64,000 bases of DNA. It comes from Blautia parvula (lineage in GTDB: Bacteria > Bacillota > Clostridia > Lachnospirales > Lachnospiraceae). The translations under genes were made by a program, and so were the position numbers. Below the pieces are notes generated by a model. The model saw only the letters and a program-made list of their open reading frames with translations, did no database searches and had not been told where the DNA came from. Numbering within the stretch: position 1 is the first letter of the stretch; each line of letters starts with the position of its first letter. Positions 16,203 through 35,645 of this stretch are shown piece by piece. Location of the stretch: assembly GCF_020215665.1 (NCBI RefSeq), contig NZ_CP084061.1:496001-560000 (forward strand). The letters are read 5' to 3'.

Positions 16203-16407
16203 TCACTCCGGAAGCCGTCCTTCGTACATGATACTTAATTCTCCATACACCTGAGCCCAGTTCCGGATGGTTGTGGTCCATTTCTTTGTGGCCTCAAAGG
16301 TTGCTAAATATAACGCTTTGAGCAACGCTGTGTCGCTTGGAAATACGCTTCTCTGGCGGTTCAGCTTTCGATAAGTGGAATTCAGCGATTCAATGGCATT
16401 TGTCGTA
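16203..16407 (-). pseudogene. IS256-family transposase, C-terminal fragment
   Basis: The minus strand encodes the last 67 residues of a mutator-type transposase, from TNAIESLNSTYRKLNRQ to a stop after YEGRLPE. The glutamate of NAIESLN is the third member of the DDE triad. The matching N-terminal part lies at 19891-20927; placing the two side by side restores an uninterrupted reading frame (KVIYTT-NAIESLN). The fragment has no start and is not expected to be translated alone. Confidence 0.9.
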
Positions 16408-16427
16408 CTATCACGAAATCGGCATAG

Positions 16428-16520
16428 TACGACTTATGCCGACAAAAAAACTATACCGACATTTTTAACAAATCCCTCATTCACTGGCTCTTTCGAAAAA
16501 ATATCGGTATAGTTTTTGAC
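16428..16520. repeat. Left end of the RIT element, paired inverted recombinase sites
   Basis: The outer site is 16428-16466, and an opposite-facing inner site with the core ATCGGTATAG lies at 16496-16520. Just outside, GTCGTACTAT (16402-16411) and ATAGTACGAC (16424-16433) form a perfect 10-bp inverted repeat around 12 bases, a possible crossover site. Confidence 0.7.
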
Positions 16521-16568
16521 CTTTTCTTAAATATCCCTCATGATGGAACAAAAAGAAGGAGGTTTCCT

Positions 16569-19801: not shown

Positions 19802-19890
19802 AAACTATACCGACATTTTTTTAGAAAGACCTTGTAAATACGGGATTTCTTAGAAATGTCGGTATAGTTTCTTTGTCGGCATAAGTCGTA
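19799..19890. repeat. Right end of the RIT element, paired inverted recombinase sites
   Basis: The inner site TAAAAACTATACCGACATTT (19799-19818) faces away from the outer site at 19850-19890, which ends GGCATAAGTCGTA and is the inverted copy of the left outer site. Confidence 0.75.
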
Positions 19891-20927
19891 TATATGACCT
19901 TCCTGACCATTGCTGAAAACTTGAAAATTGGGGATATGGCATCCCAGTTATCCTTCCAGCGCTTCATGGAATTCGGATATTTGGGCGTCCATTTTTCTGT
20001 TACCCGGTCAAGTGCTGCCAGCGCCTTTTTTTCATCAGCTGCCTGGTAGATGGTCTTTAGATCTGCGGCAAATGCCTTCCTGTCTTTATCCGGAACATAT
20101 TTTAATGTGTTTCTTACCTGATGGACAATGCATCTCTGATATTCTGTTTTGGGGAATGCGGCAGCAATGGCTTCCTTTATTCCCGTAAGGCCGTCCGCAC
20201 AGATGATGAGGATGTCTTTTACCCCCCGGTTCTTCAGTTCATTTAAAACAGACAGCCAGTATTTTGAACTTTCATTCTCTCCCACATGGATTGTCAGTAC
20301 CTCTTTCTTTCCTTCTGTATTGATCCCAAGGATGACATAGGCGGCAAGCTTGCGGATCACACCATTGTCACGGACAGAATAGTGGATGGCGTCAATGTAA
20401 AGGATGGGATAGACATTATCCAGAGGACGGTTCTGCCAGTCTTCGATCTGAGGAAGGATCTTGTCTGTAACATCAGAAATAAATCCTTCCGAGGTCTCAA
20501 ATCCGTAGATATCTTCAATAGTTTCAGATATCTGCCGGGTAGTCATTCCCTTCGCATACATGGAAATGATCTTCTGGTCAATATCAGAAATGTCTTTCTG
20601 GCGTTTTTTGACCACCTGTGGTTCAAAGGTAGATTTTCGGTCTTGCGGCACATCGATTTCCATGGAACCGAAACTACTGTTGACCCGTTTTCGTTTGTAA
20701 CCGTTCCGGTAATCATCATTGTCTGAGCGTTCCGATTTTTGATATCCCAGGTGATCATCCAGCTCAGCCTCCATCATTTCCCTGATGGTTCCGCCAAGAA
20801 GATCTTTCAGGGCATCCTGAATGTCTTCAGCTGTCTGAATATCGTATTCTTCCAAAAGCTGATGGATAATGCTGCGCTTTCCTTCCGTCATTTGTACTCT
20901 GTGTACTGGTTTCTTTTGTCTTGCCAT
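19821..20927 (-). pseudogene. IS256-family transposase, N-terminal part cut by the RIT insertion
   Basis: The minus-strand frame starts at 20927 (MARQKKPVHRVQMTEG) and matches mutator-type transposases up to KVIYTT at 19891. The last 20 residues or so are read from the end of the inserted element. The first two acidic residues of the DDE triad are present (ILYIDAIH and IICADGLTGIK), but the third, in NAIESLN, lies 3.5 kb away at 16203-16407. The joined protein would be 413 residues, normal for the family. The truncated product should be inactive, though it keeps its DNA-binding half and could compete with intact copies. Confidence 0.9.
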
Positions 20928-21045
20928 AATAAAAGGCCCTCCTATGATTTTTATTTTATCATAGAAGAACCTTATAAATCCTATTTTACAGAAAAAGTTT
21001 CACACTCTCGCGGAAGAACCCCATTTAGAGCACACTGCACAGCGC

Positions 21046-22737
21046 TATAGGGTTCTTCCGCAATTATCCGTAAATAGGCTTCACTGCGTACATTAATTTT
21101 GCTGCCAACAGGAGCTTGCTACACCTTCCGTACATCGTACGTTTTACCATTTTAAGTTTGCTGTTAGTTCCTTCTACAAATCCATTCGATAATGTACTGG
21201 CCACTGAATTTTCAACAGCATCAAGGTCTTTTTCCAAACCTGTGGCGAAACGGGCAAGCTCTTTTAATTCTGATGTTTTATATTTCCCGATATACAAATA
21301 CAGTAGTGCCATATTTTTCTTCTCGTATATTTCACGAAATTCCCGGATGCACGCCATAAGCTCCCTAAGTTTTGGGTATGTCTGCAATAAACATGCTTTA
21401 TGGTTGCCTGTAAGTTCTGCCCCCATCCACAAGAAGCGGAACACACCGCTTCTGGATATACGGTCATACTTTTGCAATTTTTTCTTTTTTTGCACTGCTT
21501 CAGCAGAAGAACTCTTGTAAACAGCTATATCAATCTGAAACCGTTCTATAATTTTGTTCATAAAGTCGTAAGCCGCAGTCTGTCCGCCTTTATAGCCTTT
21601 TGCAAGGATGCTGCGGTATACGTCTTTCCGGCACAAGGCCTCATAATCCCCATTTAGATACTTTGTCACTGTGTTCCTGCTGCAATGCAGCATCTTAGAA
21701 ATTTGCCTTTTACTGTACCCGGCAGAATCGTATTCGTAGATTGCCTTATAAAGCTGTACACTTTTTTCATTATATTCAATGACATTATCCACACAGCATG
21801 GCGTTTTTTTTACCAGTTTCATCCTCACTGGTGTTTTCTCTGCTGTCATAATCAGAAGGAATCCTGATGTCAACAGGCAGTTCGGAATTCACTGTATTTT
21901 TTATTGCTTCCAAAAGATTCTGGTGGAGATGGAATCTGTCTGCGATCTGCATGGCATCCGGCAATATCTCGGTTATTGCAGAAGAATAGGCACTTGCCCG
22001 GTCTCTGGTCACCGCTTTTACATGCTTGTTCTTACTGAGCCATTCCTTCAGGGTATTGCCGTCACGTCCATCCAGAATTGCAACCGGATGATGTGTGGCT
22101 TCATCTACAATGATTGTCCCATAGGTGTGCCTCTTCTTAAACGCAAAGTCATCCACTCCGATGATGATCCCGCATTCTGCTTCCGGCTGCATGGAATATC
22201 TCTTAACCAGTAAACGGATCACACTGTCGCCGCTGGTTCTCAGATTCATGGCACGGCAGATTCGCGCACAGCCCTCGCAGCTTGTCTCCAGGGCCAGTGT
22301 GCATATAAAATCTGCGCAGCGATCTGTCATACGACTGTAATAGTTTAAGAATCCATTAATATTTTCAGCAAAGGTAGTCACATCACAGGCTGGGTTATCA
22401 CATTGATACTCATATGTATTTACCAAAAGGTATGTGCTCTTCCCTAAAATTGGAAGGTCTTGTATCTTTCTTTCATATGTCCCGTGCCTATGTTTGGAAA
22501 CAGTACTGCATTTTGGGCATTTACAGCTCTTGGAACGGGCAAACATTTTAACAAAGATTTCCTTGTCTCCCTGGCAAATCTGGGCGATTTCCATTTCTTT
22601 CGGATAAAATTTCTGTAGGTCCAACGTGGTTGTTATAGGCATAGGCTTTCCCCCCTGATAAAAATCTATGTCTAAATATTACCATGGTAAGGGGATTATA
22701 TCAATGCCGTGTACGGACAATTGCGGAAGAACCCCAT
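21046..22737 (-). mobile_element. ISL3-family insertion sequence
   Basis: Twenty-base terminal inverted repeats, TATAGGGTTCTTCCGCAATT (21046-21065) and the complement of 22718-22737, differ at one base. The element is about 1.69 kb and holds one split transposase frame on the minus strand. I found no matching 8-base target duplication. A further copy of the GCGGAAGAACCCC end lies just outside at 21010-21022. Confidence 0.8.
21064..22642 (-). pseudogene. ISL3-family transposase with a frameshift at an A8 tract
   Basis: Frame one (22642 down to 21785, 285 codons) gives a zinc-ribbon start (CKCPKCSTVSKHRHG, then CDNPAC), a helix-turn-helix and the first two acidic residues (GVDDFAFKKR and VTRDRASAYSS). 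Frame two (to 21064) continues with VDNVIEYNEKSVQLYKAI and ends with the third acidic residue in NGFVEGTNSKLKMVKR. The frames meet at eight A residues on the coding strand (T8 at 21804-21811 of the plus strand); one A fewer would restore a transposase of about 530 residues, the usual length. It may be inactivated, or rescued by slippage. Confidence 0.85.
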
Positions 22738-22772
22738 ACAGTGCACTCCTTCCGGTCATTAGAGCATTACTG

Positions 22773-22952
22773 TTAATCCGGAATCTTTATTCCGTTTTCT
22801 TTTAGCAATGATTCAAGTAACTTCACACGACCTAGCAGGTAATTGATTTCGCTCCAATTGGAGGAACATAATTCCGCGGCTTGAATATTCTGCTTCAAAA
22901 ACATCACATGTCCGGAAATATGGAAAGCATTTATCTGGTTATCGGAAATCAC
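22773..22952 (-). CDS. Small ORF downstream of the IS21 relic, function unknown
   Basis: A 59-residue minus-strand frame from GTG 22952 to TAA. The protein is helical and well formed (HVMFLKQNIQAAELCSSNW, then a LLGRVKLLESLLKENGI ending), unlike the decayed DNA around it. No good ribosome site is visible. It lies between the ISL3 end and another small ORF. I do not recognise it; it may be a conserved accessory ORF of the IS21-type element. Confidence 0.35.
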   Translation of the reverse strand: MISDNQINAFHISGHVMFLKQNIQAAELCSSNWSEINYLLGRVKLLESLLKENGIKIPD

Positions 22953-22974
22953 CTTAAATCAGCTTAACTATATA

Positions 22975-23220
22975 TCATTCTATGAGGATTGTTTTGTCAA
23001 GGACTTGCCGCCATTGGCGGTGCTTGCACCCTTGATAAATCAAGGCGCATAGAATATCATTTATATGCTGATTTCCATTCACCGGAATTATGATTTCCTT
23101 ACACCGGACTGGTGATGGATTCCACACCGGATTATTCACGGCTTCCTGTAAAGCTATCTGTGCTACTTGATGATTAATCAGTACTGCACATTTATTGTTG
23201 TTGAAGGGACATTCTTGCAT
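22975..23220 (-). CDS. Small cysteine-containing ORF coupled to istB, function unknown
   Basis: An 81-residue minus-strand frame. Its ATG overlaps the istB stop (TAATG), and GGAGG lies 9 bases upstream, inside the istB end. It starts MQECPFNNNKCAVLINHQ and has IALQEAVNNPVWNP in the middle. The strong ribosome site and overlap suggest that it belonged to the istA-istB transcription unit as a third gene. No family is recognised. Confidence 0.45.
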   Translation of the reverse strand: MQECPFNNNKCAVLINHQVAQIALQEAVNNPVWNPSPVRCKEIIIPVNGNQHINDILCALIYQGCKHRQWRQVLDKTILIE

Positions 23221-24007
23221 TATGATATGCCTCCTTCCGTTTTTGCCTTTAATCCATGCCGGCATCTCATTGATACTTTTCCTTCGATGAAAACGTCGTA
23301 TGCATTGTTTGTAATACGGTCCATGATAGCTTCCGCTATAGGGCTTCCTTCGTCGTATTCTGAATCAATACGTCCATACTACTCTTCATTATTGTACTGG
23401 CTACAAAGAATCATGGAACCTTTTGGACTATTAATCCTCTTTTCCACGGTTTCAAGAAGGTCATATCTTTCCTGTGCGGTAAGTTTTCGAATTAGCCATT
23501 CATCAATAATGAGAAGTTCTGCCTTACAGTAAGCATTCATTACCTTACGAAATGTTCCGTCTGATTTTGCGAGTGAAAGTTCATCAAGCAATTCAGGCAT
23601 TCTGATATATCGTACGGTTTTGAATTTCCGGCAGGCAGCATTCCCCAGTGCACATGCTATGTAGGTCTTGCCCGAACTGGCGGCTCCCTTCAGGATGATA
23701 TGATGACTTTCATTTATATACTGACATGTTGAAAACCTAATTAACCGGGCTTTATCAAGCTTGCGATCCGGCAGATACTCTAATCCTCAATACAAGCGGA
23801 AGATATAGAAAAGGTGGCTCTTTTTATAAGATTCTTTAGTTTGTTCGCCTGACGCCGGTTCCATTCAGCATCAACAAGAAGAGCTAAGCGTTCTTCGAAT
23901 CCCAATGAGTTGAATGACCTGAAATCGTTGATCTGATTTTGAAATTCATCAGCCATGGCACTACAGTTGAGAGCCTTCAGTTTTTCGAAAGTAGATGCGT
24001 TAATCAT
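23220..24007 (-). pseudogene. istB: istB, IS21-family helper ATPase (broken)
   Basis: The minus strand encodes an IstB-like AAA+ protein in pieces: MINASTFEKLKALNCSAMADEF to SACIED; then, after a one-base deletion near 23781, EYLPDRKLDKARLIRF, the Walker A region HHIILKGAASSGKTYIACALGNAA, LLIIDEWL (Walker B) and LCSQYNNEE; then an in-frame TAG at 23379-23381 (expected Trp) and the C-terminus [14 protein letters not shown]. IstB loads and stimulates the IstA transposase. With one frameshift and one nonsense change it should be inactive. Its ATG overlaps the istA stop. Confidence 0.85.
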
Positions 24008-24752
24008 TCTGCGTCACCTCCGTTTCTGTAGGCTGCATGACCACGGGTTATACCGTTGCTTCTTTTTTCATTTGGTTGTCTTATACCTTTGACATCAGAG
24101 GTAAGTTTATCCTGTCTATTCTTAAGGATGGTAATAATACTTCTTAATGATGGCTGTATTGTAACCGTTAAAAGTCTTTCACAGGCTTTTCTATACGGTA
24201 GTTTCCGTATTTTTCGGCAGCTTTCATTAATCCGATACAATACTTGTATCCCTGTTCCGGTTCTTTTTCGGAATATAAGAAATGATTAACCGTTTTTAAT
24301 ATAGATAACCCGATACTTTCAGCCCAAGCAACAAACTCGTCAGGATTATAAGAAAGATACTTCTGATGATTGAGTGGAATATGCATCCTTGATGCAGATA
24401 GAATCTCTCTGAGGGTTAGTTTTTCTGGCATGTGAGGCGACGCGGCCACCATGATAAAAAACCTCTACCATTGCATTGGTCAAACGAATATCTACCTGTT
24501 CCCCGATTTAATTAAATGGAATTGAGTATTTATTGATTCCGTCACTTATGAGATGGTCGTTTTGAACCTTTGCAGTGGACCAGACTGCCGGTTCGTAAGG
24601 GGCTTTGGGAAACGGCTGCATAAACATAACAGCTGCAGGAAAGTACAGCCATAAACAGGTATGCAGGAGTCGCTTCACCTGTAACTTCATCGAATATATC
24701 AATTGTCCCACCAGCCCAGTCAACTTCCATTTCATCACCCGGTCTTTACTTC
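24004..24752 (-). pseudogene. istA: istA, IS21-family transposase relic (5' and internal parts missing)
   Basis: Two pieces remain. The upstream one (about 24730-24542) reads EVDWAGGTIDIFDEVTGE, the first catalytic Asp region of IS21 transposases, and stops. The downstream one has the typical VDIRLTNAMVEVFYHGGRVASH segment, then, after a frameshift, the C-terminus that ends before istB. The first 120 or so residues and much of the DDE core are gone. The upstream break joins directly to the rfbA relic at about 24758, so a deletion or recombination removed the IS end. Confidence 0.8.
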
Positions 24753-24757
24753 TATCC

Positions 24758-25106
24758 GGCAGGCGTGTCGGATATGGCAAAGGATGTGAAGCCTTCTGCC
24801 CATGGCGAGCTTGAGATTATCACACTCAATGAGAGGTACCTCGATCAGAACCGCCTGGATGTGCAATTGTTAGGGAGTGGCTTTGCTTGGCTCGATATCG
24901 GCACGATGGAGAGTCGGCTTGAGGCGGCAGAATTTGTACATAAGGTAGAAACACGCCAGGGAGTGAAGATTTCAGCTCCGGAGAAAATCGCATTCCGATA
25001 TGGTTGGATTGATAAGGAAGAGCTGTTAAAGTCAGCCGAAAAATACGGAAAGAGTCCTTACGAACAACACTTAAAGGCGGTAGTAGAAGGGGAGGTACGT
25101 GGATAA
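24758..25106 (+). pseudogene. rfbA: rfbA (rmlA) C-terminal relic
   Basis: The frame encodes the last 113 or so residues of glucose-1-phosphate thymidylyltransferase: KDVKPSAHGELEIITLNERY, then WLDIGTMESRLEAAEFVHKV and the helical tail. The intact gene at 47913-48791 has the same segments ([40 protein letters not shown]). The N-terminal two thirds with the GGSGTR nucleotide loop are lost at the junction with the IS21 relic. Its TAA overlaps the ATG of the rfbC relic. Confidence 0.85.
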
Positions 25107-25504
25107 TGAAAGCAATAGAAACGTAGATTCCCGAAGTAGTGATTATCGAAACAGATGTATTTGCTGATTATAGAGGATACTTCACAGAGACATATAAGAA
25201 ACCAAAATATGAAGCAATTGGCATCACAACAGAATTTGTACAGGATAGCATGAGTTTCTCTGCGCAAAAGGGAACCTTGCGTGGTCTCCATTGGAAGAAT
25301 CCGCCTTCTGCTAAGGCAAAGCTGGTTTCCTACACAAAGGGAAAGGTGATTGATGTTGCCGTAGATATTCTCAAAAGCAGTCCAACATCTGGTTAGTGGG
25401 TAAGTTGCGAACTAAGTGAGGAGAATCACAGACAGTTTTTTATTACCCATGGGTTTGCACACGGATTCCTTATGTATACGGTTTGTTGCACAGTAAGTAG
25501 GTAA
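25106..25504 (+). pseudogene. rfbC: rfbC (rmlC) dTDP-4-dehydrorhamnose 3,5-epimerase relic
   Basis: From ATG 25106 the frame reads MKAIET, then a stop (TAG 25124-25126), then IPEVVIIETDVFADYRGYFTETY, DSMSFSAQKGTLRGLHW (the family's RGLH motif) and VDVAVDI-like sequence, a second stop at 25394-25396, then ENHRQFFITHGFAHGF before the reading breaks down. Two nonsense codons and a missing C-terminus make it non-functional. No intact rfbC occurs elsewhere in the window, although intact rfbA, rfbB and rfbD do. Confidence 0.85.
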
Positions 25505-25738: not shown

Positions 25739-26629
25739 ATGTCAAATATAAAAGAGTTAATATTTAAAAAAAATTGGGAAATTTGGGATAAAAAGGTTTT
25801 AGAAGAAGTTGAATTTTCACTGGACAGTATTCAATCAGAGGATATAATCTCTATATCTTTTGGTGAATTACAGGATTTTAATTCAAGGAATATGCCTGCT
25901 TTATTGGTGTTGATTTTTCGTATTTATGAAATAACTGGTAAACAGATTTCTCTTATAAACATAGCGGATAAAATCTATAACTATCTTTTGGTGAGAGGAA
26001 TCTTCAAACTTACACAGTTACGGGCTGACAGGAATCGGATTAAGAAGAAAGTAGAAGTTATTCAGGAATCAGAATCACTTATACCGATAATGTATATCCG
26101 GACCCAGGAAGGAATATTTGACTATCATGTTAAATTGCAGCAGGTATTGAATAGAAGCGGTATTAACGATCAATTTGCTCTTTTAAACATGATAATGGAA
26201 CTTCTGCAAAATGGGGAAGAGCATGGAAGAGGGGAGCTCGCAAAATCTGATGCTGAGAAGAAGGCAAGGTATGGAAAGATTGATCTTTATACATTTTGTG
26301 ATGAGTGGAATGGAAAGCTTTGTCTAGTGGTAATGGATTTTGGTATTGGATTTTTGGAAAGCCTACGTCAGAATAAGGGATACGAGAATCAAATTTTGAC
26401 TAATAAAGAGGCAATTACAAAAGTGCTGGAGGACCATATTTCCTGCAGAAACGTAAATGGAGGAATGGGATATATCTGCATTGAGAATATTATAGATAAA
26501 CATAATGGAAAGTTACTGATTTCATCAGGAGATGCAACGGTAATTTATCGGAATGGAACAGTATATTATTTGGATGACCATAGAAGAATTAGAGGATCAG
26601 TTGTATATATTGAAATTTGCAAATGCTAA
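25739..26629 (+). CDS. STAS domain fused to a GHKL-type ATPase, putative anti-sigma-like regulator
   Basis: A 296-residue soluble protein. Residues about 30-100 (ISISFGELQDFNSRNMPALLVLIFRIYE) resemble a STAS domain. From residue 140 a GHKL ATPase follows: LLNMIMELLQNGEEHG is the N box with the catalytic Glu/Asn, VVMDFGIGFLESL (about 199) the G1 box, GGMGYICIENI (about 240) the G2 box. No histidine-kinase dimerisation domain is present. Such proteins act as SpoIIAB/RsbW-like switch kinases or as ATP-dependent switches. It stands alone with its own promoter and terminator, directly before the tubulin-like operon, and may control it together with the STAS-like protein at 34977-35645. Confidence 0.65.
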   Translation: MSNIKELIFKKNWEIWDKKVLEEVEFSLDSIQSEDIISISFGELQDFNSRNMPALLVLIFRIYEITGKQISLINIADKIYNYLLVRGIFKLTQLRADRNRIKKKVEVIQESESLIPIMYIRTQEGIFDYHVKLQQVLNRSGINDQFALLNMIMELLQNGEEHGRGELAKSDAEKKARYGKIDLYTFCDEWNGKLCLVVMDFGIGFLESLRQNKGYENQILTNKEAITKVLEDHISCRNVNGGMGYICIENIIDKHNGKLLISSGDATVIYRNGTVYYLDDHRRIRGSVVYIEICKC

Positions 26630-26727: not shown

Positions 26728-26788
26728 TTGTAAAAATTCATCAGATATGCTAAGATAAAGTTACTTGATATTCACTTATTAAAAGTGA
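26728..26788 (+). promoter_or_regulatory. Promoter P1 with operator O1 of the tubulin-like operon
   Basis: TTGTAA (26728-26733), 17 bases, TAAGAT (26751-26756), then 15 bases to the palindrome TCACTTATTAAAAGTGA (26772-26788). The operator lies where transcription starts or just after it, a position expected for a repressor. The same arrangement recurs at 26839-26899 and 34887-34946. Confidence 0.65.
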
Positions 26789-26852: not shown

Positions 26853-26899
26853 AAAAATAGTATTATTTTTGGCTCTAATATTCACATTCTAAAAGTGAA
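26839..26899 (+). promoter_or_regulatory. Promoter P2 with operator O2 of the tubulin-like operon
   Basis: TTGAGT (26839-26844), 16 bases, TATTAT (26861-26866), then 14 bases to the operator TTCACATTCTAAAAGTGAA (26881-26899). The spacing repeats that of P1/O1. The 190-base leader before the first gene holds no further ORF with a clear ribosome site. Confidence 0.6.
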
Positions 26900-27087
26900 C
26901 AATATAAAAAACATTAACTTGATAATAATATTAAGAAACGATATATTTAGTGATTATTTTGAGCTTTTCACAATCATAGAGTTGACCGCAAGAAGAATTT
27001 GTGGAAAGTTTATGCAGAGATTATACAACAGGAAGAACTATAATAATTAAAAAGCAGGAGAAAACTGCAGGGAGGGAGAAAAATAAT

Positions 27088-28665
27088 ATGAAAAACAAAG
27101 TAATTACAGTATTTTTAATTGCTATTCTGACGATAGCAACATTTTCAGGATGTTCAGATCAAAGAGCAGACAGCATTCCTTATCCGGATGAATTTATTGT
27201 TCCAAAAGCAGAAAAAATAGAATCTTCTGCTCAGGATGAAGAGAAAGTCCTCCAAAAAGAGAAGAATGAACGCAGTGAGGACGCTACAGAGAAAAGCGGA
27301 GAGATAAGAAATAAAGTGGATGCAGCAGATAATACGACGCCTCATGTGGCCAATAATTTTTTCGACGTATCCGGAAGTATGAGACGTTCGGCGGAAGTTG
27401 TGAACATTCATTCGGCGGCCAGTAAATCCGAAGCAGGATTTGAGAGACATTACTACACATTAGATTCAAAGCAGAATCTAATGGAGACAGACGAAAGACT
27501 TAGTCTCAGCGGCCAGTACGGGGTCGGCGCAGTGATTGATTTGATTGGAACTGTAGATATTCCGACAGACTCGAACGGAGTCAATATCCTTACCACAGAT
27601 TTGCAGACTGGAACAAGCTGTACAGAGATTGGGGAGTGGCTTGTGAATACGGGAAGCACTGGATATACATTTTACGTGTTCACCATGACTTATGATGGAA
27701 GTCTTCAATTTAGGGCCTATACTTCCAACAGCGTTAAAGAAGATGTTTCCATATCGGATTGTTATTTCTCTGAAAAAGAGTTCCTGATGGTTGTCTTCGG
27801 TCAAAACAATCTGGTTGAGGCCTTTGATACGCGTTTTCAATCTAAAATTGGTGATTCTCTCAACTATGATAAGTGTCATGTTTCTCTTAACGTAAAAGAA
27901 GAACAGCCTAAGAGTTTTCTGGAATTGCATTCGAGCAAATGCTTTACAGACAATCTGGCCAATATTACATATGACGGGACAAACTACTGCTATGGATTAG
28001 CAGAAGCTGTTACCAGAGACACAGAGTTTACTTTGGATAATACATTTGTGTATATGAAAAGTAAGAAGTCTGCAAATGCTGATACAGATGCCGTTAAGGC
28101 TGTTCTTTATGGAACATCTGATGAGGGAATTCCTGAAATTATAAAAGACGAAACTAAAATAAAGGTGTTAGAGTTTGATCCTGAATCAAATATGTACAGG
28201 GACAGCAGTGTGGGATTTGATGTGGATATAGAATCATGTCCGAATGGTATGAAAGCAGCAGAGGATGAGGAGCTCAATGCTGAATTAGGCGGTAATCTTG
28301 TGGCAAAAGGCCCTGTACTTGCTGTTACTGCAGAGAACAAGGCGCTACCAAAAGGATTATATGCAGTGGAAGTACAGCTTGTATGCGCAGCAACAGGTGA
28401 AGCTGCTAGTCTGCAGAAGTTTGCTGTTTCCCATAGTGCAGGGCTGGAGGAATACATCTCTGCCCTGAAAACAGAATGTATATCAAAAAAGGTAAATGGC
28501 AAAGCTAGTACATCCAGATATAACTATGTAGGGAATCCGGATGATTCTGTGTTCACCAGTCTGCTGGAATTTGAACGGCTGGCTGATGAATTGATTGCTG
28601 CAGGGGTGGAGTCCGGGGCTGATAACAATGCTATTACATTCCGACTAATCATTGACAATAGATAG
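27088..28665 (+). CDS. Lipoprotein with a von Willebrand factor A-like domain
   Basis: About 525 residues from ATG 27088; the longer frame from 27001 would bury the signal sequence, and GAGGGAG precedes 27088. Residues 1-22 are a lipoprotein signal with lipobox FSGC (Cys22). After a charged linker, NFFDVSGSMRRS (about 92-103) has the D-x-S-x-S part of a MIDAS metal site, and ILTTDLQTG (about 166-174) the later Asp of vWA domains. The C-terminal 250 residues are unassigned. It would sit on the outer face of the membrane. It is the first gene of a five-gene operon; vWA partners are known beside FtsZ-like remodelling proteins, so it may sense or bind a surface ligand. Confidence 0.65.
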   Translation: MKNKVITVFLIAILTIATFSGCSDQRADSIPYPDEFIVPKAEKIESSAQDEEKVLQKEKNERSEDATEKSGEIRNKVDAADNTTPHVANNFFDVSGSMRRSAEVVNIHSAASKSEAGFERHYYTLDSKQNLMETDERLSLSGQYGVGAVIDLIGTVDIPTDSNGVNILTTDLQTGTSCTEIGEWLVNTGSTGYTFYVFTMTYDGSLQFRAYTSNSVKEDVSISDCYFSEKEFLMVVFGQNNLVEAFDTRFQSKIGDSLNYDKCHVSLNVKEEQPKSFLELHSSKCFTDNLANITYDGTNYCYGLAEAVTRDTEFTLDNTFVYMKSKKSANADTDAVKAVLYGTSDEGIPEIIKDETKIKVLEFDPESNMYRDSSVGFDVDIESCPNGMKAAEDEELNAELGGNLVAKGPVLAVTAENKALPKGLYAVEVQLVCAATGEAASLQKFAVSHSAGLEEYISALKTECISKKVNGKASTSRYNYVGNPDDSVFTSLLEFERLADELIAAGVESGADNNAITFRLIIDNR

Positions 28666-28716
28666 TATCTGTTTTGATATGAAGTATTATAGATAAAATG
28701 AATGGAGGACACAGTT

Positions 28717-29181
28717 ATGAACAGTGAATTTACTAATTTTTTCCGCAGTGTAGGAGTAATGATCATGTTAATGGTTTTGGTTACTTTGGGATTATACCGT
28801 ATTGCTTATATTACCGGGGCGGGAAATGCGGCATTTTATCAGAGCCTGTTGTTTGTCTTCGGACAGGCAGTGGTGCAGATTTTATTTTATGGTCTATGGT
28901 ACCGCAAGGTTAATCGTCTGGCAGCAGATATGTATGATACTACAGAAAAAAGAAGTATGGCATTCCGCTATAAAAACAGATATCTCCTATTGGCAGTAGT
29001 TGTAACAGGATTAATTGCAGGTATTGCTATATCAGCTATGTTGGTACATGTGATTTTTGTGGGAATTAGTTTTACATATTGCAGCAGTTCGGTATGGACT
29101 ATGTTTTTTGTAGGCAATGTTGCATTGTTTGTACTGATGCGTTTTTGTGGATTGCCAAACCGGGTGACCAATACATATTAA
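28717..29181 (+). CDS. Small membrane protein, four predicted helices
   Basis: A 154-residue protein; ATG 28717 has GGAGG 8 bases upstream and is preferred to ATG 28702. Hydrophobic segments lie at about 11-31, 40-60, 90-115 and 120-140. The loop between helices 2 and 3 (KVNRLAADMYDTTEKRSMAFRYKNR) is charged and probably cytoplasmic. No family is recognised. Its place between the vWA lipoprotein and the tubulin-like protein suggests a membrane link between the two. Confidence 0.6.
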   Translation: MNSEFTNFFRSVGVMIMLMVLVTLGLYRIAYITGAGNAAFYQSLLFVFGQAVVQILFYGLWYRKVNRLAADMYDTTEKRSMAFRYKNRYLLLAVVVTGLIAGIAISAMLVHVIFVGISFTYCSSSVWTMFFVGNVALFVLMRFCGLPNRVTNTY

Positions 29182-29214
29182 GGGAGATTTGACTATATAG
29201 GGAGGATATACATT

Positions 29215-30822
29215 ATGGATAATATGAATTATGTGTTCTTAGAGGGTGGTACCGGAGTCAGAGTCGGTCTGGCAGTCTGTCACTTGGCTGACTGTAAAGC
29301 TTATGCATCAAAAGGAAAAGCAGAAGGGTGGAATATGGTATATGAGACCATGGATGCAGGTGCTGAAGAAATCGGTGAGATATTGAAGCTTTTGTCAGAT
29401 GATGAGCAGTTGGATTTCTGTGATCCGTCCATTAACTTTGCATTTCTGAAGATGGCCGAGCGTGTCAAGAAAAAGCTGCAGGAAGAAGGTGATTTTTGCC
29501 TGGAGAAAGTGGCTCCGGAATGGTTTAAAAATGAGCTGCTTCTTACAAAGGAAGAATTGCAGAGAGATCTTCTTGGGGGGTATTACCGTGATCTTGTAAT
29601 TGGCAGCATTGCGTCTGCTCTGGCAATGGACTGTGCAATGGAAACCCAAGAAGACAAAAAGGCAGGATTCCAGGCTATTGTAGATGCGGTTGTAGCCTCA
29701 AATAACAGATATGAGGTAAGAGTGGCATTTGCAGGATCAGGAATCGGTGGTGAAGGTCGTACTAACTTGTGTATGCATCCGGCCATGCTTAAGAAACTCT
29801 GTATTGAAAGCGTCATAAAAGAGCTACACATGCAATATAACGATGCAGAGACGTATGTGGAGAAGAATTTGAAGATTGCTGTCATCATGCTTGGAGGTGC
29901 ATTTCGTTTTCCTGCAATTGAGGGGTTGGATCAGGATGTTGCAGGTCTGGTTGCCGGGACGCTTAGAAATTATCCGAAAGATTCTGCTGATGCGGTGAAT
30001 CTGTTTTATCTACTGGAGCATGACTGTATGCCGGTACAAGCAGAGTTTCCTTCTGATTCTGGGCTGCAGTTTAAACATGCACATGCCATTGAGCTTGTAG
30101 CTGTAGCAATGATTGAGAATTTTTTTAATAGAACCACAGAAGAGGTAGAAAAAAGATGTCCCGTTATTCCACATTACTCTCTTCCAGGCAATTCACGGAC
30201 AAATTGGGAGAATCTTGGCCTTCCTGATAGTTACCGTATGGCAATGAGTGCTCGTCTTCGGTTTGATGCTGCCTTGTTTTACTGGGTTCGTCCGCAACTA
30301 ATCTTATCCTCTAAAGAGAGAAATGCAGGTAAGATTTATGATTCAGAGATACTAAGTAAGATGTTTGGCGGGAAAACAGGAAAACGATTGGAGTCTGCAA
30401 TAGCGGATATTGGATTTGATGTGGACAGTAAGATGATAACCCCCCTCTCAGTTCTTTTGGATAAAGAGACAAGATGGCTTTCTTATCTTAGGGATGTGTG
30501 CCTAACAGGAAAGAATTGGGAGACTGGGGCAATGCCTGCAGAATCATTTGGAACAAGTCTTTTTCCTGTAGATCAGATAGATAAACTTTTGGAGCATACA
30601 CATATTCGGTATGTGGGAGGAATGACAGGTTATAAGCTTGATGCACTGACAGATTGTCCAGAAAGTAACAGATATCATACGGGAATGACACTTGACAGAA
30701 TCCGTTCACAGATAACATATACCAATCATGGAACACCCAGGGACTTTAAGGAAATCATGGGCGGGCTGTATGAGATGTGCAGTAAAGTAAAGGAGAAAAA
30801 ATATGGCATTTTCGGAAAGTAG
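29215..30822 (+). CDS. Tubulin/FtsZ-like GTPase candidate (Tubulin_2-like)
   Basis: A 535-residue protein. The N-terminus YVFLEGGTGVRVGLAVCHL (residues 6-24) resembles the glycine-rich first loop of tubulin-like proteins of the Tubulin_2 group. VAFAGSGIGGEGRTN (170-184) lies where that group has GStfGGTGAS, the counterpart of the tubulin T4 phosphate loop; here the Thr is replaced by Glu. KIAVIMLGGAFRFP follows, again in the expected order. The C-terminal 250 residues are helical and unassigned. FtsZ-like proteins of this kind are found beside vWA proteins and are proposed to remodel membranes. The gene overlaps the next by 20 bases. Assignment rests on motifs read by eye. Confidence 0.5.
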   Translation: MDNMNYVFLEGGTGVRVGLAVCHLADCKAYASKGKAEGWNMVYETMDAGAEEIGEILKLLSDDEQLDFCDPSINFAFLKMAERVKKKLQEEGDFCLEKVAPEWFKNELLLTKEELQRDLLGGYYRDLVIGSIASALAMDCAMETQEDKKAGFQAIVDAVVASNNRYEVRVAFAGSGIGGEGRTNLCMHPAMLKKLCIESVIKELHMQYNDAETYVEKNLKIAVIMLGGAFRFPAIEGLDQDVAGLVAGTLRNYPKDSADAVNLFYLLEHDCMPVQAEFPSDSGLQFKHAHAIELVAVAMIENFFNRTTEEVEKRCPVIPHYSLPGNSRTNWENLGLPDSYRMAMSARLRFDAALFYWVRPQLILSSKERNAGKIYDSEILSKMFGGKTGKRLESAIADIGFDVDSKMITPLSVLLDKETRWLSYLRDVCLTGKNWETGAMPAESFGTSLFPVDQIDKLLEHTHIRYVGGMTGYKLDALTDCPESNRYHTGMTLDRIRSQITYTNHGTPRDFKEIMGGLYEMCSKVKEKKYGIFGK

Positions 30823-33800
30823 AGAGATAAATAGTGTCAGAAACAGCGAAGTAAATGGCTGCATGGATTTGGAAGGCATTACAATTCAGGAAACTGCTGA
30901 TTTGATTATGACTGCTGCTTCCAGAGATAATACATATCAGAATGCAAAGAACATTTTAAATGTGTTTGGTAATATTAAAGCCTGGATGCTGAATGCCAAT
31001 TGCGAGAATGAAAAAATTGCAAAGGCAAATATAAACCATATGAAAGTAATGTATACTTATTGGGCCGGAGCTATTTATAAAGGGTATAAGGTGGAATTTA
31101 GAACATATGCCTTTAACAAGGAGAATCCAATAGAAAACAGGTGTATCAATGATCTGAAAAAGATGAGTGGCTGGAGAGAGTCGTCGGAGGCTATACTGGA
31201 AATGGCAATTGGAGACCGTACGGTTGGTATTTTTGTTCCTGAATGGAAATGTTTTATTCCAGGAGCCAGTTTCTGTGAAGAATCTATCGACGGGGAAACT
31301 CCTGATGATTATTTGAATGCAAATCTCCACATAAAGAAACGCTGTAGGGCTATGTTGGGAAATTTAGTAGAAAATGGGACGGATGTAAAAGTTATCAAGG
31401 TACTTTTGGAGCAGCTCGGAGGAAATATTTCTCCAGAAGAACGCAGGATTTATGAAGGTGAAGTGGCAGAGATGCTTTCCGTTGATGTGACCACATATAT
31501 AGAAAAGACAGCGTCAGGCGCCAATGCCGCAACTATATGCGGACATATGGGGACCAATCATGAGGAAAAACTCCTGAGCCGTCCGGTTTTGGTCAATACG
31601 GATGTAAACCCGGTTATCGGACCGGGTATGAAGCAAATTGGAAATAACTTTGTCGTTATTCCGCCCGTGATTCATGTGGACAAGATTAATGATTCGGAAT
31701 ATGCTTTTGGGGAACTGGATATGTATGGGATTCCTGAATGGATTGAGTATACAGCTGAACTGGATGGGAATCTATACCATCAGGTGTATGCTAAGGGTGA
31801 TAAAGGGTTTAAAACGTGTCGCCCGCAGAACTATATAGATATGTCCTATATGATCCCGGAGGGAATTTTGAAAAAGTATAATTATCTTGTGCAGGATTCG
31901 GCAGCGGGTTCCCTGGGGCTGGACGAGGTGGATGTAGGTTGGAATGTTTATCCATATGACGATGAGACTAATGTGGCTAAGCTTGTTACTAAGCAGCATC
32001 CGGATGAGAAGTGTGAAATTCATCAGCGGACAGAGAAAATCACACGAATGGAGCTGTGCGATACCCATGGCAATATTCTGGGGACTATCTTTCCGGAAGT
32101 AAGAGCGGATTTTGAAAAAAAAGACAATATAGCTTATTTATCTCTGGACCCTGCGGGAGCAGTTAGCGTAAGGCTTATGACGCTTTCCGGTAGCGGTCGG
32201 TCAGGAGATATTTGCTATATGAATCTAATACATCCGGTGACACCGATGGCAAAAGGTGAACTGCATCGTGCGGTGGAGCGATGCCTGTTTCCTTTAGAAG
32301 GCAAAGGGACACATTTTGATTCTCTTTTGCAGAAGTTCTTTCCTAAAGGCTTTGGCGGATGGGCTGGATTAATGGTAGAAGGCAGAGTATGGCTGCCGGA
32401 TCAGAATGCATTGTTTGATGCATTGAAGGCTTGTCCGGGTACAATGAGTGCTGCTATGACCGATTTAGGAGTTGTAAGCAATATGAAAGAGATGTTGACC
32501 CGTTCCAATTTGAGTCCAAAGGATAAGGAGTCCTGTATGTCAGCTTTGAAGTTATATATTGGTACCATGATTTTGGAAGGAGTTTTTGCTCTTGCCAAAG
32601 AGGGGTATGCAGTTAGGGCTGAAAATCTGAAAGTTTTAATCTCTTATCCTGAAAACGGCTCAGGGGAAGGTGTTACCAGATTAATAATACGCGCCATAAG
32701 AGGGGCTTTAAGCTTAGTTAACGAATATATGGTGCCGGATAATCAGTTGGTGGTTGATGAAAATGTATTCTTTTACTCAGAAAGTGAAGCAACTGCAGAG
32801 TGGCATAAAAATAATCCGCCTGGAAAAAGCTTTATGGGAAGAAATGTTGCAGCGGGAACTCCAGATTATGGACATTCCACTCACGATTATTCTCTCAGAG
32901 TAAATGATCATTTATATATGTTTTCCATTCCTTATGCTGCTCAATATATCACGAACGCTACCCTGGCGAAGGTTTATGATGGAAATGCATGTGCTCTGAT
33001 GCGATGTTTTTTAGGCGGAAGTCAGGAACTTAAAATCAGGGCACTTGAGTCTATTGAGCAATCTATGGAGTCTTCACAGGGGAAGCTTTATGAACGACTC
33101 GGGTTTGTCCTTTCATTAAACAGGCTGTTTAGTAGTTGTGTTTTTAAAGTGACGGGAAGTAATGCAGATATTTTTCAGATGAAGGTTCAACAGATTACAG
33201 AGGCAAAACTTAATATTGCAATTCCTGCTTATGCTTATACGGTTATTCGTGCACTTAAGGACGGAGAACTTAAGCTTGACAGTAGTATAATATTGGCTCC
33301 GGTTGGAAAAGGATCTTTGGCAATAGATAATACTGTAGATGATTTTGAGCGGCGTTTTATTCAGCGTTTAAATAATCAGATTCAGTATATGATCAATAAC
33401 GATGAAAAATTCCCGAAGAATACAGTTTTTACTGGGGTAATTCAGCTTCTTCCAAATAATGACAGGGAAAAAATCAGTGTTGCCCAGGGAATGATTGATA
33501 TTGAAGAGAATAGTGGAGCAGATAGGTCAGGCTATATCTCTGTAATTCCTGATCCGATTGAGTATTATCTTGATCTGGCATATAGTGTAGATCAGTCCGG
33601 TATAGCTGCCAGGGAGGAAGTGAGCATAGAATTGGAGAAGTTTAATACTCCTGCAATGAGAGCAAGATATAATGCCATGCGGGAAGAGATTTATGATCAG
33701 GCATTTGATGCACTTGTCAACAGTTATAGATATGAACAGTTTGAGGAGAGTTTTAATCGTTGGGGATATACGGGTATTGAAGAGGGCGTAGCATACGATG

Positions 33801-33967
33801 AGGCAGGCATCCTGGATGATACAATTCGCACAATAGTAAAGCAACAGTTTCAAAACCTGGTCGCTGAATTGAAACAGTGCAGAAAAGAGCTCGTTATGTC
33901 TTGTCCCTACATCGAAAAGGAGATGATGTGCAGTGCCATGATTGACCTTGCAATTGAGAGATTGTGA
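30803..33967 (+). CDS. Very large protein with possible actin/Hsp70-type ATPase motifs
   Basis: A 1054-residue soluble protein; AAGGAG at 30789-30794 fixes ATG 30803, inside the previous gene. The first 440 residues are unassigned. LSLDPAGAVSVRLMTLSGSG (about 446-465) could be a phosphate-1 loop of the actin/Hsp70 fold, GTPDYGHSTHDYSLRV (about 684-699) a phosphate-2 loop with DxG-x-ST-x-D, and LAPVGKGSLAID (about 830) might belong to the nucleotide site. The last 150 residues are acidic and helical. If correct, the operon pairs a tubulin-like with an actin-like protein. No closer family is recognised. Confidence 0.45.
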   Translation: MAFSESREINSVRNSEVNGCMDLEGITIQETADLIMTAASRDNTYQNAKNILNVFGNIKAWMLNANCENEKIAKANINHMKVMYTYWAGAIYKGYKVEFRTYAFNKENPIENRCINDLKKMSGWRESSEAILEMAIGDRTVGIFVPEWKCFIPGASFCEESIDGETPDDYLNANLHIKKRCRAMLGNLVENGTDVKVIKVLLEQLGGNISPEERRIYEGEVAEMLSVDVTTYIEKTASGANAATICGHMGTNHEEKLLSRPVLVNTDVNPVIGPGMKQIGNNFVVIPPVIHVDKINDSEYAFGELDMYGIPEWIEYTAELDGNLYHQVYAKGDKGFKTCRPQNYIDMSYMIPEGILKKYNYLVQDSAAGSLGLDEVDVGWNVYPYDDETNVAKLVTKQHPDEKCEIHQRTEKITRMELCDTHGNILGTIFPEVRADFEKKDNIAYLSLDPAGAVSVRLMTLSGSGRSGDICYMNLIHPVTPMAKGELHRAVERCLFPLEGKGTHFDSLLQKFFPKGFGGWAGLMVEGRVWLPDQNALFDALKACPGTMSAAMTDLGVVSNMKEMLTRSNLSPKDKESCMSALKLYIGTMILEGVFALAKEGYAVRAENLKVLISYPENGSGEGVTRLIIRAIRGALSLVNEYMVPDNQLVVDENVFFYSESEATAEWHKNNPPGKSFMGRNVAAGTPDYGHSTHDYSLRVNDHLYMFSIPYAAQYITNATLAKVYDGNACALMRCFLGGSQELKIRALESIEQSMESSQGKLYERLGFVLSLNRLFSSCVFKVTGSNADIFQMKVQQITEAKLNIAIPAYAYTVIRALKDGELKLDSSIILAPVGKGSLAIDNTVDDFERRFIQRLNNQIQYMINNDEKFPKNTVFTGVIQLLPNNDREKISVAQGMIDIEENSGADRSGYISVIPDPIEYYLDLAYSVDQSGIAAREEVSIELEKFNTPAMRARYNAMREEIYDQAFDALVNSYRYEQFEESFNRWGYTGIEEGVAYDEAGILDDTIRTIVKQQFQNLVAELKQCRKELVMSCPYIEKEMMCSAMIDLAIERL

Positions 33968-33976
33968 GGTGAGAAT

Positions 33977-34714
33977 ATGTTTGAAGCAGCAGAAGGAGTA
34001 ATTATAGGGGCTCAGTCAACCTCTTTAAGTGAGGACTCTTTATTTTGTGTTGTGTTGGTGATGATTCTGGTATTACAGATATTGCTTACGGCTGGCATGG
34101 TTATCATAATAATGAAACATATAGATTCTTCCAGAGACCTGAGAAATATACTAAGAAAAGTTGATAAAATGGAGGAAAAGCTTGCAAGGAATGCAGGAAA
34201 AAGACAGAAAGAAAAAACTTTTGTATCATACGGTAACGAGAATGATACTCCTCCCCTTGCAAATATATATTATCAGGAATCAACAGACAACATAGTGCAG
34301 AATTCGGATAGGCAAAAAAGCATGGAAACACAACCTGATTCTAGTAATCAGGTGATAAATGATCTGGCAGATAGATGTCAGTGTTGTGGTCTGTCTGTCA
34401 ACGGTTCCGTTCACTACAATCCTGAGGGACCGGCAAAATTCGATGTAAAAGAACTGGAGGAAGCAGAATTCGTTCTACGCTCGGACATGACAGTTATACC
34501 TGTGAGTAGTAGCTTTTTGGGATATAATAATGATCAATATTATAGAAGCCGAGAGTTTTTCGTCGTATATGATTTTCAAGATAAAAATGGTAGAGATGTT
34601 GTTTGGCAGGAGCCAGTAAAGCTGGTTGCAGTCCAAAAACCGGCAGTTGTAGAAAAGATAGATAACGGTTACCAATTATTAAAAAAAGGCATTCTGATTG
34701 TTGAAAAAAAATAA
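33977..34714 (+). CDS. Membrane-anchored coiled-coil protein with C-terminal beta domain
   Basis: A 245-residue protein. One membrane helix (about residues 24-47) is followed by a short coiled coil (SSRDLRNILRKVDKMEEKLARN), a low-complexity linker, a CQCCG cysteine cluster (about 135-139) and a C-terminal domain of short strands (about 160-245). The domain is probably cytoplasmic, since positive charge follows the helix. It is the last gene of the operon, 10 bases after the large protein, and is followed by a terminator. It may tether the large ATPase or the tubulin-like protein to the membrane. Confidence 0.6.
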   Translation: MFEAAEGVIIGAQSTSLSEDSLFCVVLVMILVLQILLTAGMVIIIMKHIDSSRDLRNILRKVDKMEEKLARNAGKRQKEKTFVSYGNENDTPPLANIYYQESTDNIVQNSDRQKSMETQPDSSNQVINDLADRCQCCGLSVNGSVHYNPEGPAKFDVKELEEAEFVLRSDMTVIPVSSSFLGYNNDQYYRSREFFVVYDFQDKNGRDVVWQEPVKLVAVQKPAVVEKIDNGYQLLKKGILIVEKK

Positions 34715-34720
34715 TTTTTT

Positions 34721-34762
34721 CATTACAGAGAAAATGTTGTAAAATTTTCTCTGTAATGATTA
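34721..34762 (+). terminator. Rho-independent terminator of the tubulin-like operon
   Basis: CATTACAGAGAAAAT (34721-34735) pairs perfectly with ATTTTCTCTGTAATG (34744-34758) around an 8-base loop, followed by ATTATCTTTATT. Confidence 0.85.
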
Positions 34763-34886: not shown

Positions 34887-34946
34887 TTGTAAAAGAGGAT
34901 TGATTGTGGTATTATGTCTTTGTTTGGAATCACTTATATAAAGTGA
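34887..34946 (+). promoter_or_regulatory. Promoter P3 with operator O3, before the STAS-like/winged-helix gene
   Basis: TTGTAA (34887-34892), 17 bases, TATTAT (34910-34915), 14 bases, then the palindrome TCACTTATATAAAGTGA (34930-34946). ACTATTGTAAAA is shared word for word with P1. This is the third copy of the promoter-operator arrangement and points to joint control with the operon upstream. Confidence 0.65.
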
Positions 34947-34976: not shown

Positions 34977-35645
34977 ATGATTATAAATTTAATGGAAATC
35001 ATAAGACAGATTTCCAATGCGGATTACTGGTATCTTGCTGGACGTGATAAAGCACAACAAATATTTTCATTAGCATTGGAAGAAAAACTGTCAGACAATA
35101 CTGAAGTGAATAGAAGGGTTATTGTTGATTGTAAAGATATTCCCCTGGCAACATCTTCTTTTATAGATGAATTGTTTTTTATCCATATTTTTGATTCAAA
35201 TTGTCGTCATGGTAATTCTATATTAATTTTAAAAAATGTTAGTGATGAGCTTTATTTTAATCTGAAAATGGCTGTTGAAGGCAAAAAAGGATTAATTGAG
35301 GAAGCAAAAAAGAAAAATAAATTCTTTTTGACCATAGAGGATTTAAAAAAGTATAAGGAAAGCCATAGCAATGTTAGCAGCTGTCAAGTGGGAAGCCCCT
35401 ATTTATTATGCGAGCGTAATGGGGGATTAGAAATCCTCGGTTTTTCAGAAGGCGAAAAACAAAAAGTGCTACTGGAAAATATTATACAAGGAGCCAGGTA
35501 CACAACAAGTCTTTTGGCTTTAAAAGAAAATATTTCAAATACAGCTGCTGCAAACAGGCTGACACGCTTGTACGAGAAGAATCTGGTATTTCGCCAAATA
35601 AAGCCAGAGTCAGTTCCGGAAATCTATGAATATTTTTATTCTTGA
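34977..35645 (+). CDS. STAS-like (DUF4325-type) protein with C-terminal winged-helix-like region
   Basis: A 222-residue protein. The N-terminal half has RRVIVDCKDIPLATSSFIDELFFI (about 44-67), the pattern of the STAS-like DUF4325 domain, where the serine-rich turn is the possible phosphorylation site. The C-terminal half has SLLALKENISNTAAANRLTRLYEKNLV (about 179-205), which reads as a winged helix. It is transcribed alone from P3/O3. A likely role is a switch regulator that binds the shared palindrome and is itself controlled by the STAS-ATPase protein at 25739-26629. The regulatory link is inference. Confidence 0.55.
   Translation: MIINLMEIIRQISNADYWYLAGRDKAQQIFSLALEEKLSDNTEVNRRVIVDCKDIPLATSSFIDELFFIHIFDSNCRHGNSILILKNVSDELYFNLKMAVEGKKGLIEEAKKKNKFFLTIEDLKKYKESHSNVSSCQVGSPYLLCERNGGLEILGFSEGEKQKVLLENIIQGARYTTSLLALKENISNTAAANRLTRLYEKNLVFRQIKPESVPEIYEYFYS

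Follow-up and report, generated by a model that had tools for sequence, protein, structure and literature searches.

A five-gene operon of Blautia parvula is a far-diverged relative of a widespread bacterial tubulin-plus-actin-type gene set

INTRODUCTION

In bacteria, tubulins and actins for the most part belong to different systems, the textbook exception being FtsZ with FtsA. An operon of Blautia parvula raises the question whether proteins of the two types may also be paired outside cell division. It lies in a stretch of 64,000 nucleotides (positions 496001-560000 of the 6,247,046-base single-contig genome), hereafter called the window, where five genes follow each other on the + strand between 27088 and 34714. 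A first-pass annotation, made from the raw sequence, had read these as coding for a vWA lipoprotein, a protein with four helices, a tubulin-like protein, a large actin-like candidate and a membrane anchor.

We report here that this operon is real and that it has diverged far within a tubulin-plus-actin-type gene set of wide distribution, the actin-type half of which was not found described in the literature searched. The five open reading frames (ORFs) are intact, tightly packed and open over about 2,500 codons. The motifs named in the first-pass annotation are where it had placed them, and its assignment of the parts proved largely right.

RESULTS

Profile comparison places gene 3 with short Tubulin_2-type proteins

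Gene 3 was compared with 79 relatives, the collection of which is described below. Over residues 4-529 it aligned with this family using hhalign at 98.4% (E 6.2e-15), compared to at most 0.8% for 20 shuffled sequences, 0.3% for the reversed sequence and ≤0.7% for six other window proteins. The relatives are themselves tied to Tubulin_2. At E≤0.01 every one of the 79 full relatives hits PF13809 (the best at 1.3e-12), PF00091 (Tubulin) is matched by 37 of the 80 gene-3 rows, and the relatives' profile aligns with long Tubulin_2 proteins (91%, E 1.1e-6) via the T1 and T4 loops. By these profile comparisons gene 3 is a homolog of the short Tubulin_2-type proteins, which supports the tubulin relation that had been proposed for it.

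The two loops differ in their state. The T1-like loop is kept, while in the T4-like loop the family sequence GGTGASG is replaced by GGEGRTN (T180E, A182R, S183T, G184N). FGGTGASG is present in 79 of 79 full relatives, the loci having been found by a T4-loop pattern that allowed T or E. The Thr-to-Glu change pointed out in the first-pass annotation is thus real, since all full relatives carry Thr even though the search would have accepted Glu.

Gene 4 is related to an ASKHA (actin/Hsp70-type) family

Residues 472-721 of gene 4 aligned with the relatives' gene-4 family using hhalign at 63.5% (E 6.8e-5); the best of 20 shuffles reached 1.0%, and six other window proteins reached ≤0.7% against this family. 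When the family profile was compared to PDB, it matched MreB (1.2e-6), FtsA (2.2e-5), an actin-family protein (5.8e-5) and DnaK (2.7e-4), with matches spanning short stretches at the two phosphate loops. Foldseek was also run with the structure model of the window protein, which is weak (pLDDT 53.5): 48 of the 50 listed matches are named for ASKHA proteins (best probability 0.99, E 0.003), the other two being axoneme entries without a named chain. The names comprise Hsp70/Hsp110, actin/Arp, MreB, FtsA, PilM, ParM, CorM, BeeR and pantothenate kinase, alone or in complexes. We conclude from sequence comparison that gene 4 is homologous to an ASKHA family, which bears out the actin-type relation suggested earlier.

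The phosphate-1 pattern is found in 69 of 71 gene-4 relatives and the phosphate-2 pattern in 48 of 71; the gene-4 protein of locus L061 carries the textbook actin/Hsp70 motifs LGLDFGTTSTT, CVDIGGGSTDIS and FLAGNGAK. In the window protein, the phosphate-2 loop could be aligned by both hhalign and MAFFT, and the family sequence DIGGGTSD is changed to DYGHSTHD with loss of two glycines. The near-invariant K of the LKW motif is also lost. LDPAGAVS may, by its position only, be what is left of the phosphate-1 loop (DFGTS in the family): it could not be placed on that loop, as MAFFT put DFEK (residues 436-439) there and the confident part of the hhalign alignment stopped short. Because the phosphate-2 loop is degraded and the phosphate-1 loop unplaceable, we treat gene 4 as a homolog of an ASKHA family and not as an ASKHA ATPase. 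A guess that gene 4 is SrfB, and a downstream gene of about 700 aa SrfC, was unsupported by Pfam on proteins from L120, L061 and L099.

Relatives of the operon and their distribution

Single-sequence searches did not lead to the relatives. With gene 3, no genome other than its own matched above chance among 299 genomes of the family and 398 of the phylum (best others in both sets, E 0.001-0.1). With gene 4, the same was true of 20 genus and 392 order genomes (best other E 0.008). Single-sequence searches of viral contigs and plasmids, and a first scan of the genome_contigs collection with gene 4, found no relative.

A search for PF13809 in 295 genomes of the order gave matches in 57, the window genome not being among them. 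Most strong matches are in frames >850 aa, and some weak ones in frames of 515-575 aa. The loci with these weak matches in shorter frames, in other genomes of the order, share the layout of the window. A lipoprotein of 504-565 aa (cut off in L064) and a membrane protein of 155-162 aa come first. They are followed by a GGTG protein (510-568 aa), by a large protein with textbook actin/Hsp70 motifs (1100-1640 aa, truncated in L060 and L064) and, wherever the contig reaches, by a further membrane protein. A first gene-3 profile from five proteins (A2) matched in 21 of the 295 genomes at E≤0.01, 13 of them at E<1e-30 and the other eight weakly (≥2.2e-4). A gene-4 relative follows gene 3 in 13 of the 13 strong genomes. 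Twelve were recognised by profile, four of these being rows of the profile itself; that of L101 was recognised by its phosphate-2 motif only. The loci L060 and L064 are interrupted by contig ends.

Several loci depart from this picture. In L081 (genome G435), gene 3 is split into ORFs of 337 and 167 aa and the gene-4 ORF next to them is short, through either decay or assembly error. Weak Tubulin_2 matches of 276-345 aa in other layouts (L062, L065, L068, L069) were set aside as relatives. These proteins have starts such as GQAGGNIGKL, some stand beside recombinase- or replication-type genes, and they apparently form a separate family, which we take to be TubZ-like. L058 and L063, whose proteins have about 435-453 aa and whose layouts differ too, were likewise set aside.

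For a wider scan, an alignment of 13 gene-3 proteins, the window protein included, was used on genome_contigs (84,980 species by its description). The pattern SxFGG[TE]GAS[GA] gave 455 stretches, of which 394 were confirmed and the best 80 fetched. Four of these loci (L103-L106) duplicate L059, L064, L096 and L098, and gene 3 is full in 79 of the 80. Many of the genome records are bins, so that their taxonomy may be misassigned.

The survey of gene neighbourhoods called for in the first-pass annotation supported the co-occurrence of the two central genes. A large ORF directly follows gene 3 in 69 of 71 loci with room for it, and 67 of 71 are recognised by the gene-4 profile; since the loci were chosen for similarity, these and the following rates describe near relatives. 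A small multi-pass membrane gene stands upstream of gene 3 in 71/76 loci with room, an upstream ORF with a lipobox (on either strand) in 36/65 and an upstream DxSxS-type motif in 16/65. A membrane gene follows gene 4 in 39/67, and a MotB/ZorB-type motif is found downstream in 15/57 loci with room. The window has the same short arrangement, with genes 3 and 4 adjacent and each homologous to its family.

The relatives' gene-3 proteins have roughly 465-590 aa after start trimming. A gene-3 tree of 88 proteins, made by a quick method, covers eight named phyla, and Cyanobacteriota (38 rows), Pseudomonadota (12) and Poribacteria (11) each fall on one side of a branch. The gene set is also present in Pelagibacteraceae records. 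One cyanobacterial gene 3 compared to a plasmid collection matched six records, five cyanobacterial and one a 1.77-Mb Prevotella replicon; a Pelagibacteraceae gene 3 had no match among phage records. The annotations of two of these plasmid records differ for gene 3: one has "tubulin-like doman-containing protein", the other "hypothetical protein". Both label the large gene that follows, and the adjoining genes, "hypothetical protein".

No close relative of the window operon was found in the genomes searched. A later gene-3 profile (A6) gave a clear match only in the window among 280 genomes of the family, with three weak others (E 1.1e-5 to 0.0099), one of them in a frame of 1201 aa. A second gene-3 copy in the same genome was found neither by A6 nor by A2, though A2 misses the window gene too.

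Divergence of the window copy

The gene-3 protein keeps 22 of 48 columns that are conserved in at least 90% of the relatives; the corresponding figure is 34 of 49 for the lowest other row, and no such column is lost in the median row. Conserved residues that are lost comprise T180, A182, S183 and G184 of the T4 loop as well as D45, N50 and G51, while the T1 glycines, S175, G178, G179, G181, W331 and W421 are kept. The window branch in the gene-3 tree has a length of 5.71, compared to a median of 0.22, and its placement is unsure. Judged by its sequence, the window copy is far diverged and seems to have lost much of both nucleotide-binding sites, with its genes intact. The first-pass annotation had called the two proteins NTPases; homology to the tubulin and actin types stands, but the window motifs argue against active NTPases.

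Such divergence might mark an operon in decay, its genes heading for loss under relaxed selection after capture near mobile elements. The degraded loops and the long gene-3 branch fit this, as does the restriction of gene 3 to its own genome among 299 of the family and of gene 4 among 20 of the genus; ORFs of recombinase and transposase type, together with fragments of sugar genes (all named by eye), lie at about 16.5-25.4 kb. We nevertheless consider decay unlikely, given five open frames over some 2,500 codons, a ribosome-site-like sequence and a terminator-like hairpin, and given that W331, W421, Y253, Y265 and E293 of gene 3, conserved in the relatives, are kept in the window.

Another idea is an active system with shifted nucleotide chemistry, where the replaced loops would still bind nucleotide and the proteins would remain switches or filaments. 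The T1 sequence GGTG is kept, as are D688, G690, T693 and D695 of the phosphate-2 loop and G835 and S838 in the adenosine-site region. However, near-invariant residues are missing, among them three of the T4 loop (Thr, Ala, Ser) and the Lys of the gene-4 LKW motif, and we regard this explanation as improbable, too.

The accompanying genes 1, 2, and 5

Gene 1 carries a lipobox and the motifs DVSGSM and TTDL. Compared to 40 gene-1 candidates of relatives, it aligned using hhalign at 43.6% (E 2.4e-4) over only 15 columns (residues 85-99, around DVSGSM), the best of 20 shuffles reaching 1.7%. There was no match to a first set of four relatives' gene 1. The relatives carry motifs such as IYFDQSLSM and IVTDL, both being found by pattern in 11 of 40. 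A vWA assignment had been made for gene 1: a metal-site-like motif is indeed shared with the relatives' upstream proteins, but the window protein has no Pfam VWA match, and 28 gene-1 relatives gave neither a vWA model in Pfam nor a PDB match. One of the 28 rows of this set (A8) matched peptidase M20 and was a wrong pick. At L097, two divergently oriented gene-1 relatives (E 1.2e-54 and 5.3e-50) stand beside one operon at 9750-13499.

A crude hydropathy count gives five hydrophobic windows for gene 2 and one for gene 5. For gene 2, the first-pass annotation had counted four helices. Position and size of gene 2 are the same as for the relatives' gene 2. Gene 1 is tied to the related operons by one motif, and genes 2 and 5 are tied mainly by position and type.

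Locus, signals, and flanking genes

The features of the locus are collected in Table 1. The genes are separated by gaps of 36 nt and 33 nt, an overlap of 20 nt and a gap of 9 nt. Gene 1 has an alternative GTG start at 27001; its ATG start is preceded, about 9 bases upstream, by the ribosome-site-like sequence GGGAGGGAG. With respect to the proposed shared promoter and terminator, the terminator-like hairpin was found (13 terminator-type hairpin sites in the region, 6.9 expected). A single shared promoter is plausible, the candidate site being a consensus match (46 such sites, 37.7 expected).

Table 1. Features of the operon and its surroundings (window coordinates).
Feature	Position	Strand	Residues	Remark
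Palindrome TCACTT-N5-AAGTGA	26772-26788	.		possible operator
Palindrome, second copy	26882-26898			one mismatch; possible operator
Promoter-like site TTGATA-17-TATATT	26919-26947	+		consensus match only, 10/12
Gene 1	27088-28665	+		lipoprotein with vWA-like metal-site motif
Gene 1, lipobox FSGC	27142-27153	+	19-22	
Gene 1, DVSGSM	27364-27381	+	93-98	
Gene 1, TTDL	27592-27603	+	169-172	
Gene 2	28702-29181	+		small multi-pass membrane protein, by hydropathy count and position
Gene 3	29215-30822	+		homolog of short Tubulin_2-type (FtsZ/tubulin-like) proteins, 535 aa
Gene 3, T1-like loop GGTG	29245-29256	+	11-14	kept; aligned with relatives' GG[TSAV]G
Gene 3, T4-like loop GSGIGGEG(RTN)	29734-29757	+	174-181	family SxFGGTGASG
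Gene 4	30803-33967	+		homolog of large ASKHA (actin/Hsp70-type) family, 1054 aa; ATPase-type domain C-terminal
Gene 4, LDPAGAVS	32144-32167	+	448-455	candidate phosphate-1 remnant; position only
Gene 4, DYGHSTHD	32864-32887	+	688-695	phosphate-2 loop; aligned by hhalign and MAFFT
Gene 5	33977-34714	+		single-span membrane protein with CQCC
Intrinsic-terminator-like hairpin	34720-34759	+		3' of gene 5; arms 95% complementary
Palindrome, third copy	34930-34946			ahead of downstream flanking gene; possible operator

The palindrome has five matches in the window compared to a mean of 3.54 in shuffles, so that only its placement is suggestive. As copies stand both ahead of the operon and ahead of the downstream flanking gene, the pair of flanking genes may regulate the operon. 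The upstream one (25739-26629) has a weak HATPase_c match (E 0.0014), and the downstream one (34977-35645) resembles DUF4325, which is STAS-like (E 3e-4), and MarR (E 0.012), all under cut-off. None of the seven proteins (the five and the two flanking ones) has a match at the curated cut-off in Pfam or NCBIfam. In the Bacteroides version of the operon (L159), a DUF4325-like protein (E 3.2e-4, under cut-off) is encoded at 5467-5841, about 1.4 kb upstream of gene 1. The recombinase- and transposase-like ORFs and the short sugar-nucleotide gene pieces, all named by eye, lie within 16569-25396 of the window, between exopolysaccharide-type genes and the operon.

DISCUSSION

Weighing the assignment

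A number of results weigh against the relationship described here or bear on its strength. In the Pfam scan, window gene 3 itself matches neither PF13809 nor PF00091, and profile A2 missed it when HMMER was applied at E≤0.01. The AlphaFold2 (AF2) model of gene 3 has a predicted local distance difference test score (pLDDT) of 73.6 and a predicted template modelling score (pTM) of 0.81, and that of gene 4 is weak (pLDDT 53.5); the models were built from alignments that contain the relatives. Foldseek gave no match for the gene-3 model at E≤0.001, and dehydrogenases came before FtsZ by E-value, one of them being first; FtsZ had the top probability among the 50 matches listed, 0.90 but with E 0.18. 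A viral-structure search with this model gave nothing at E≤0.001 either, and profile A6 found no tubulin in PDB. The tubulin assignment therefore rests on the sequence profiles, and a tubulin fold of gene 3 is a possibility. Gene 2 has no sequence match to the relatives' gene 2 (1.6%, shuffles up to 1.4%), and the C-terminal end of gene 5 shows, over 24 columns, a weak similarity to its counterparts in ten loci (16.4%, E 0.0016), with 1.9% in a comparison with three loci. The relatives had been selected by the T4-loop pattern and by similarity, with 80 of 394 loci fetched. Finally, gene 4 keeps 27 of 58 conserved columns, compared to 32 of 64 in the lowest other row (L174), and is thus not far outside the spread of its family; some of the kept columns depend on the doubtful alignment of DFEK at 436-439.

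Comparison with known systems

Makarova and Koonin (2010; PMC2875224) place FtsZl1 next to vWA, GTPase and OmpA-type proteins and suggest a role in membrane remodelling. As in the window family, these FtsZl1/Tubulin_2 systems combine a Tubulin_2-type domain with membrane proteins, OmpA-type in some; their vWA protein has a possible counterpart in the lipoprotein with the vWA-like motif. They differ in that FtsZl1, in the description given there, mostly has a coiled-coil segment as well as a helical C-terminal domain (example 1051 aa), whereas the window-type protein has about 500 aa (535 in the window) and adjoins a large ASKHA protein. The passages of that paper containing the word actin name no actin-like gene in FtsZl1 operons, and some of the cyanobacterial members listed in its Figure 2C and additional files (families A1-B9) may be of the short type.

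A long-type Tubulin_2 operon (L072, 16 kb) codes for a VIDASGSM protein of 593 aa, a tubulin-like protein of 1128 aa, and proteins of 773 aa and 404 aa, the latter membrane-type. Over these 16 kb there is no ORF with both ASKHA motifs and no gene-4 profile match; this is the sole informative long-type control, as the flanks of the other 30 loci, one of which coincides with L072, are too short. Another paper sets Tubulin_2 proteins aside as divergent. PMC12204202 deals with vWA force transducers beside TolQ-type motors, and its main text does not mention tubulin. Judging by titles and the beginnings of abstracts, we found no paper describing a tubulin and ASKHA gene pair, in a search with subscription journals and preprints mostly outside its range, so that an earlier description is possible.

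In the cell-division pair FtsZ-FtsA, a tubulin-type and an actin-type protein cooperate at the membrane. The gene-4 family profile matches FtsA, and L120 gives TIGR01174 at 3.1e-5, under cut-off. The similarity is remote, however; the gene-4 protein is extended by a long additional N-terminal part, and the window pair has lipoprotein and membrane genes beside it.

Another likeness concerns the pairs MotA/MotB and ZorA/ZorB, the latter acting with further Zor proteins in Zorya defence. At L120 (Poribacteria), a ZorA-like and a ZorB-like gene are located downstream of the tubulin/ASKHA genes at 15141-18045. The MotA/ExbB-type gene matches PF01618 (8.5e-5, just under cut-off) and ZorA1 (1.1e-15), where the ZorA score may stem partly from a coiled coil since SMC and JetC models match too; the OmpA/MotB-type gene matches PF00691 (2e-10) and ZorB1 (3.1e-16). 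By sequence type, this pair is possibly an ion-driven stator. A ZorB1-like and a weakly ZorA3-like gene are also found downstream at L159. Such a pair adjoins the operons of some relatives but not that of the window.

These neighbours invite the idea of a phage-defence or other conflict system that uses a membrane scaffold. Besides the ZorA/ZorB-like pair in L120, an AbiH gene (PF14253, E 2.6e-29) directly upstream of the L059 operon at 8778-9962 and the scattered presence of the set, in 13 of 295 order genomes at E<1e-30, would agree with it. The L059 contig, the same place as L103, is recorded as Defluviitaleaceae. In PADLOC, however, the seven window proteins have no match, so that the window operon was not recognised as Zorya, and neither genes 1, 3, 4 and 5 of L120 nor gene 3 of L159 matched; among the core genes scanned (window, L120, L159), the only hit to a defence protein is a weak DrmC match of L159 gene 4 (E 0.007). 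All 38 rows from cyanobacteria group in a single clade, and Pelagibacteraceae records contain the set as well, which suggests long-term upkeep. We thus consider a defence role very unlikely.

Proposed working of the system

The operon belongs, as a strongly diverged member, to a gene set that is widespread in bacteria, and we think it fairly probable that it encodes a membrane-bound tubulin/actin-type scaffold that works like FtsZ-FtsA, the window copy probably being without normal NTP hydrolysis. In such a scaffold, the tubulin-like protein would assemble on the inner face of the membrane, and the actin-like protein, by analogy with FtsA for FtsZ, could be the adaptor between it and the membrane proteins. 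We infer this joint action and membrane assembly for the products of genes 3 and 4. The lipoprotein of gene 1, on the outside, might contact the surface or the cell wall and thereby couple the internal scaffold to the envelope; the sensor role first proposed for it is conjectural. In some members, the MotA/ZorA- and MotB/ZorB-like pair encoded downstream suggests that ion flow may add force. Because both nucleotide sites are degraded while the five frames are open, the window copy would probably be a static scaffold or have an altered use of nucleotide.

A bolder version, which we consider less likely than not, is that the set is an unnamed, widespread machine in which tubulin- and actin-type filament proteins form one membrane-coupled unit, stator-driven in some diderms, and that the window version is a passive scaffold without NTP hydrolysis in either partner.

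Meaning

Records ranging from Cyanobacteria to Pelagibacteraceae show a tubulin-type next to an actin-type gene, accompanied by membrane genes. If this conserved pair is real, cooperation of two cytoskeletal superfamilies outside cell division becomes testable, and the window copy of Blautia parvula would offer a natural variant in which the sites of both partners are altered.

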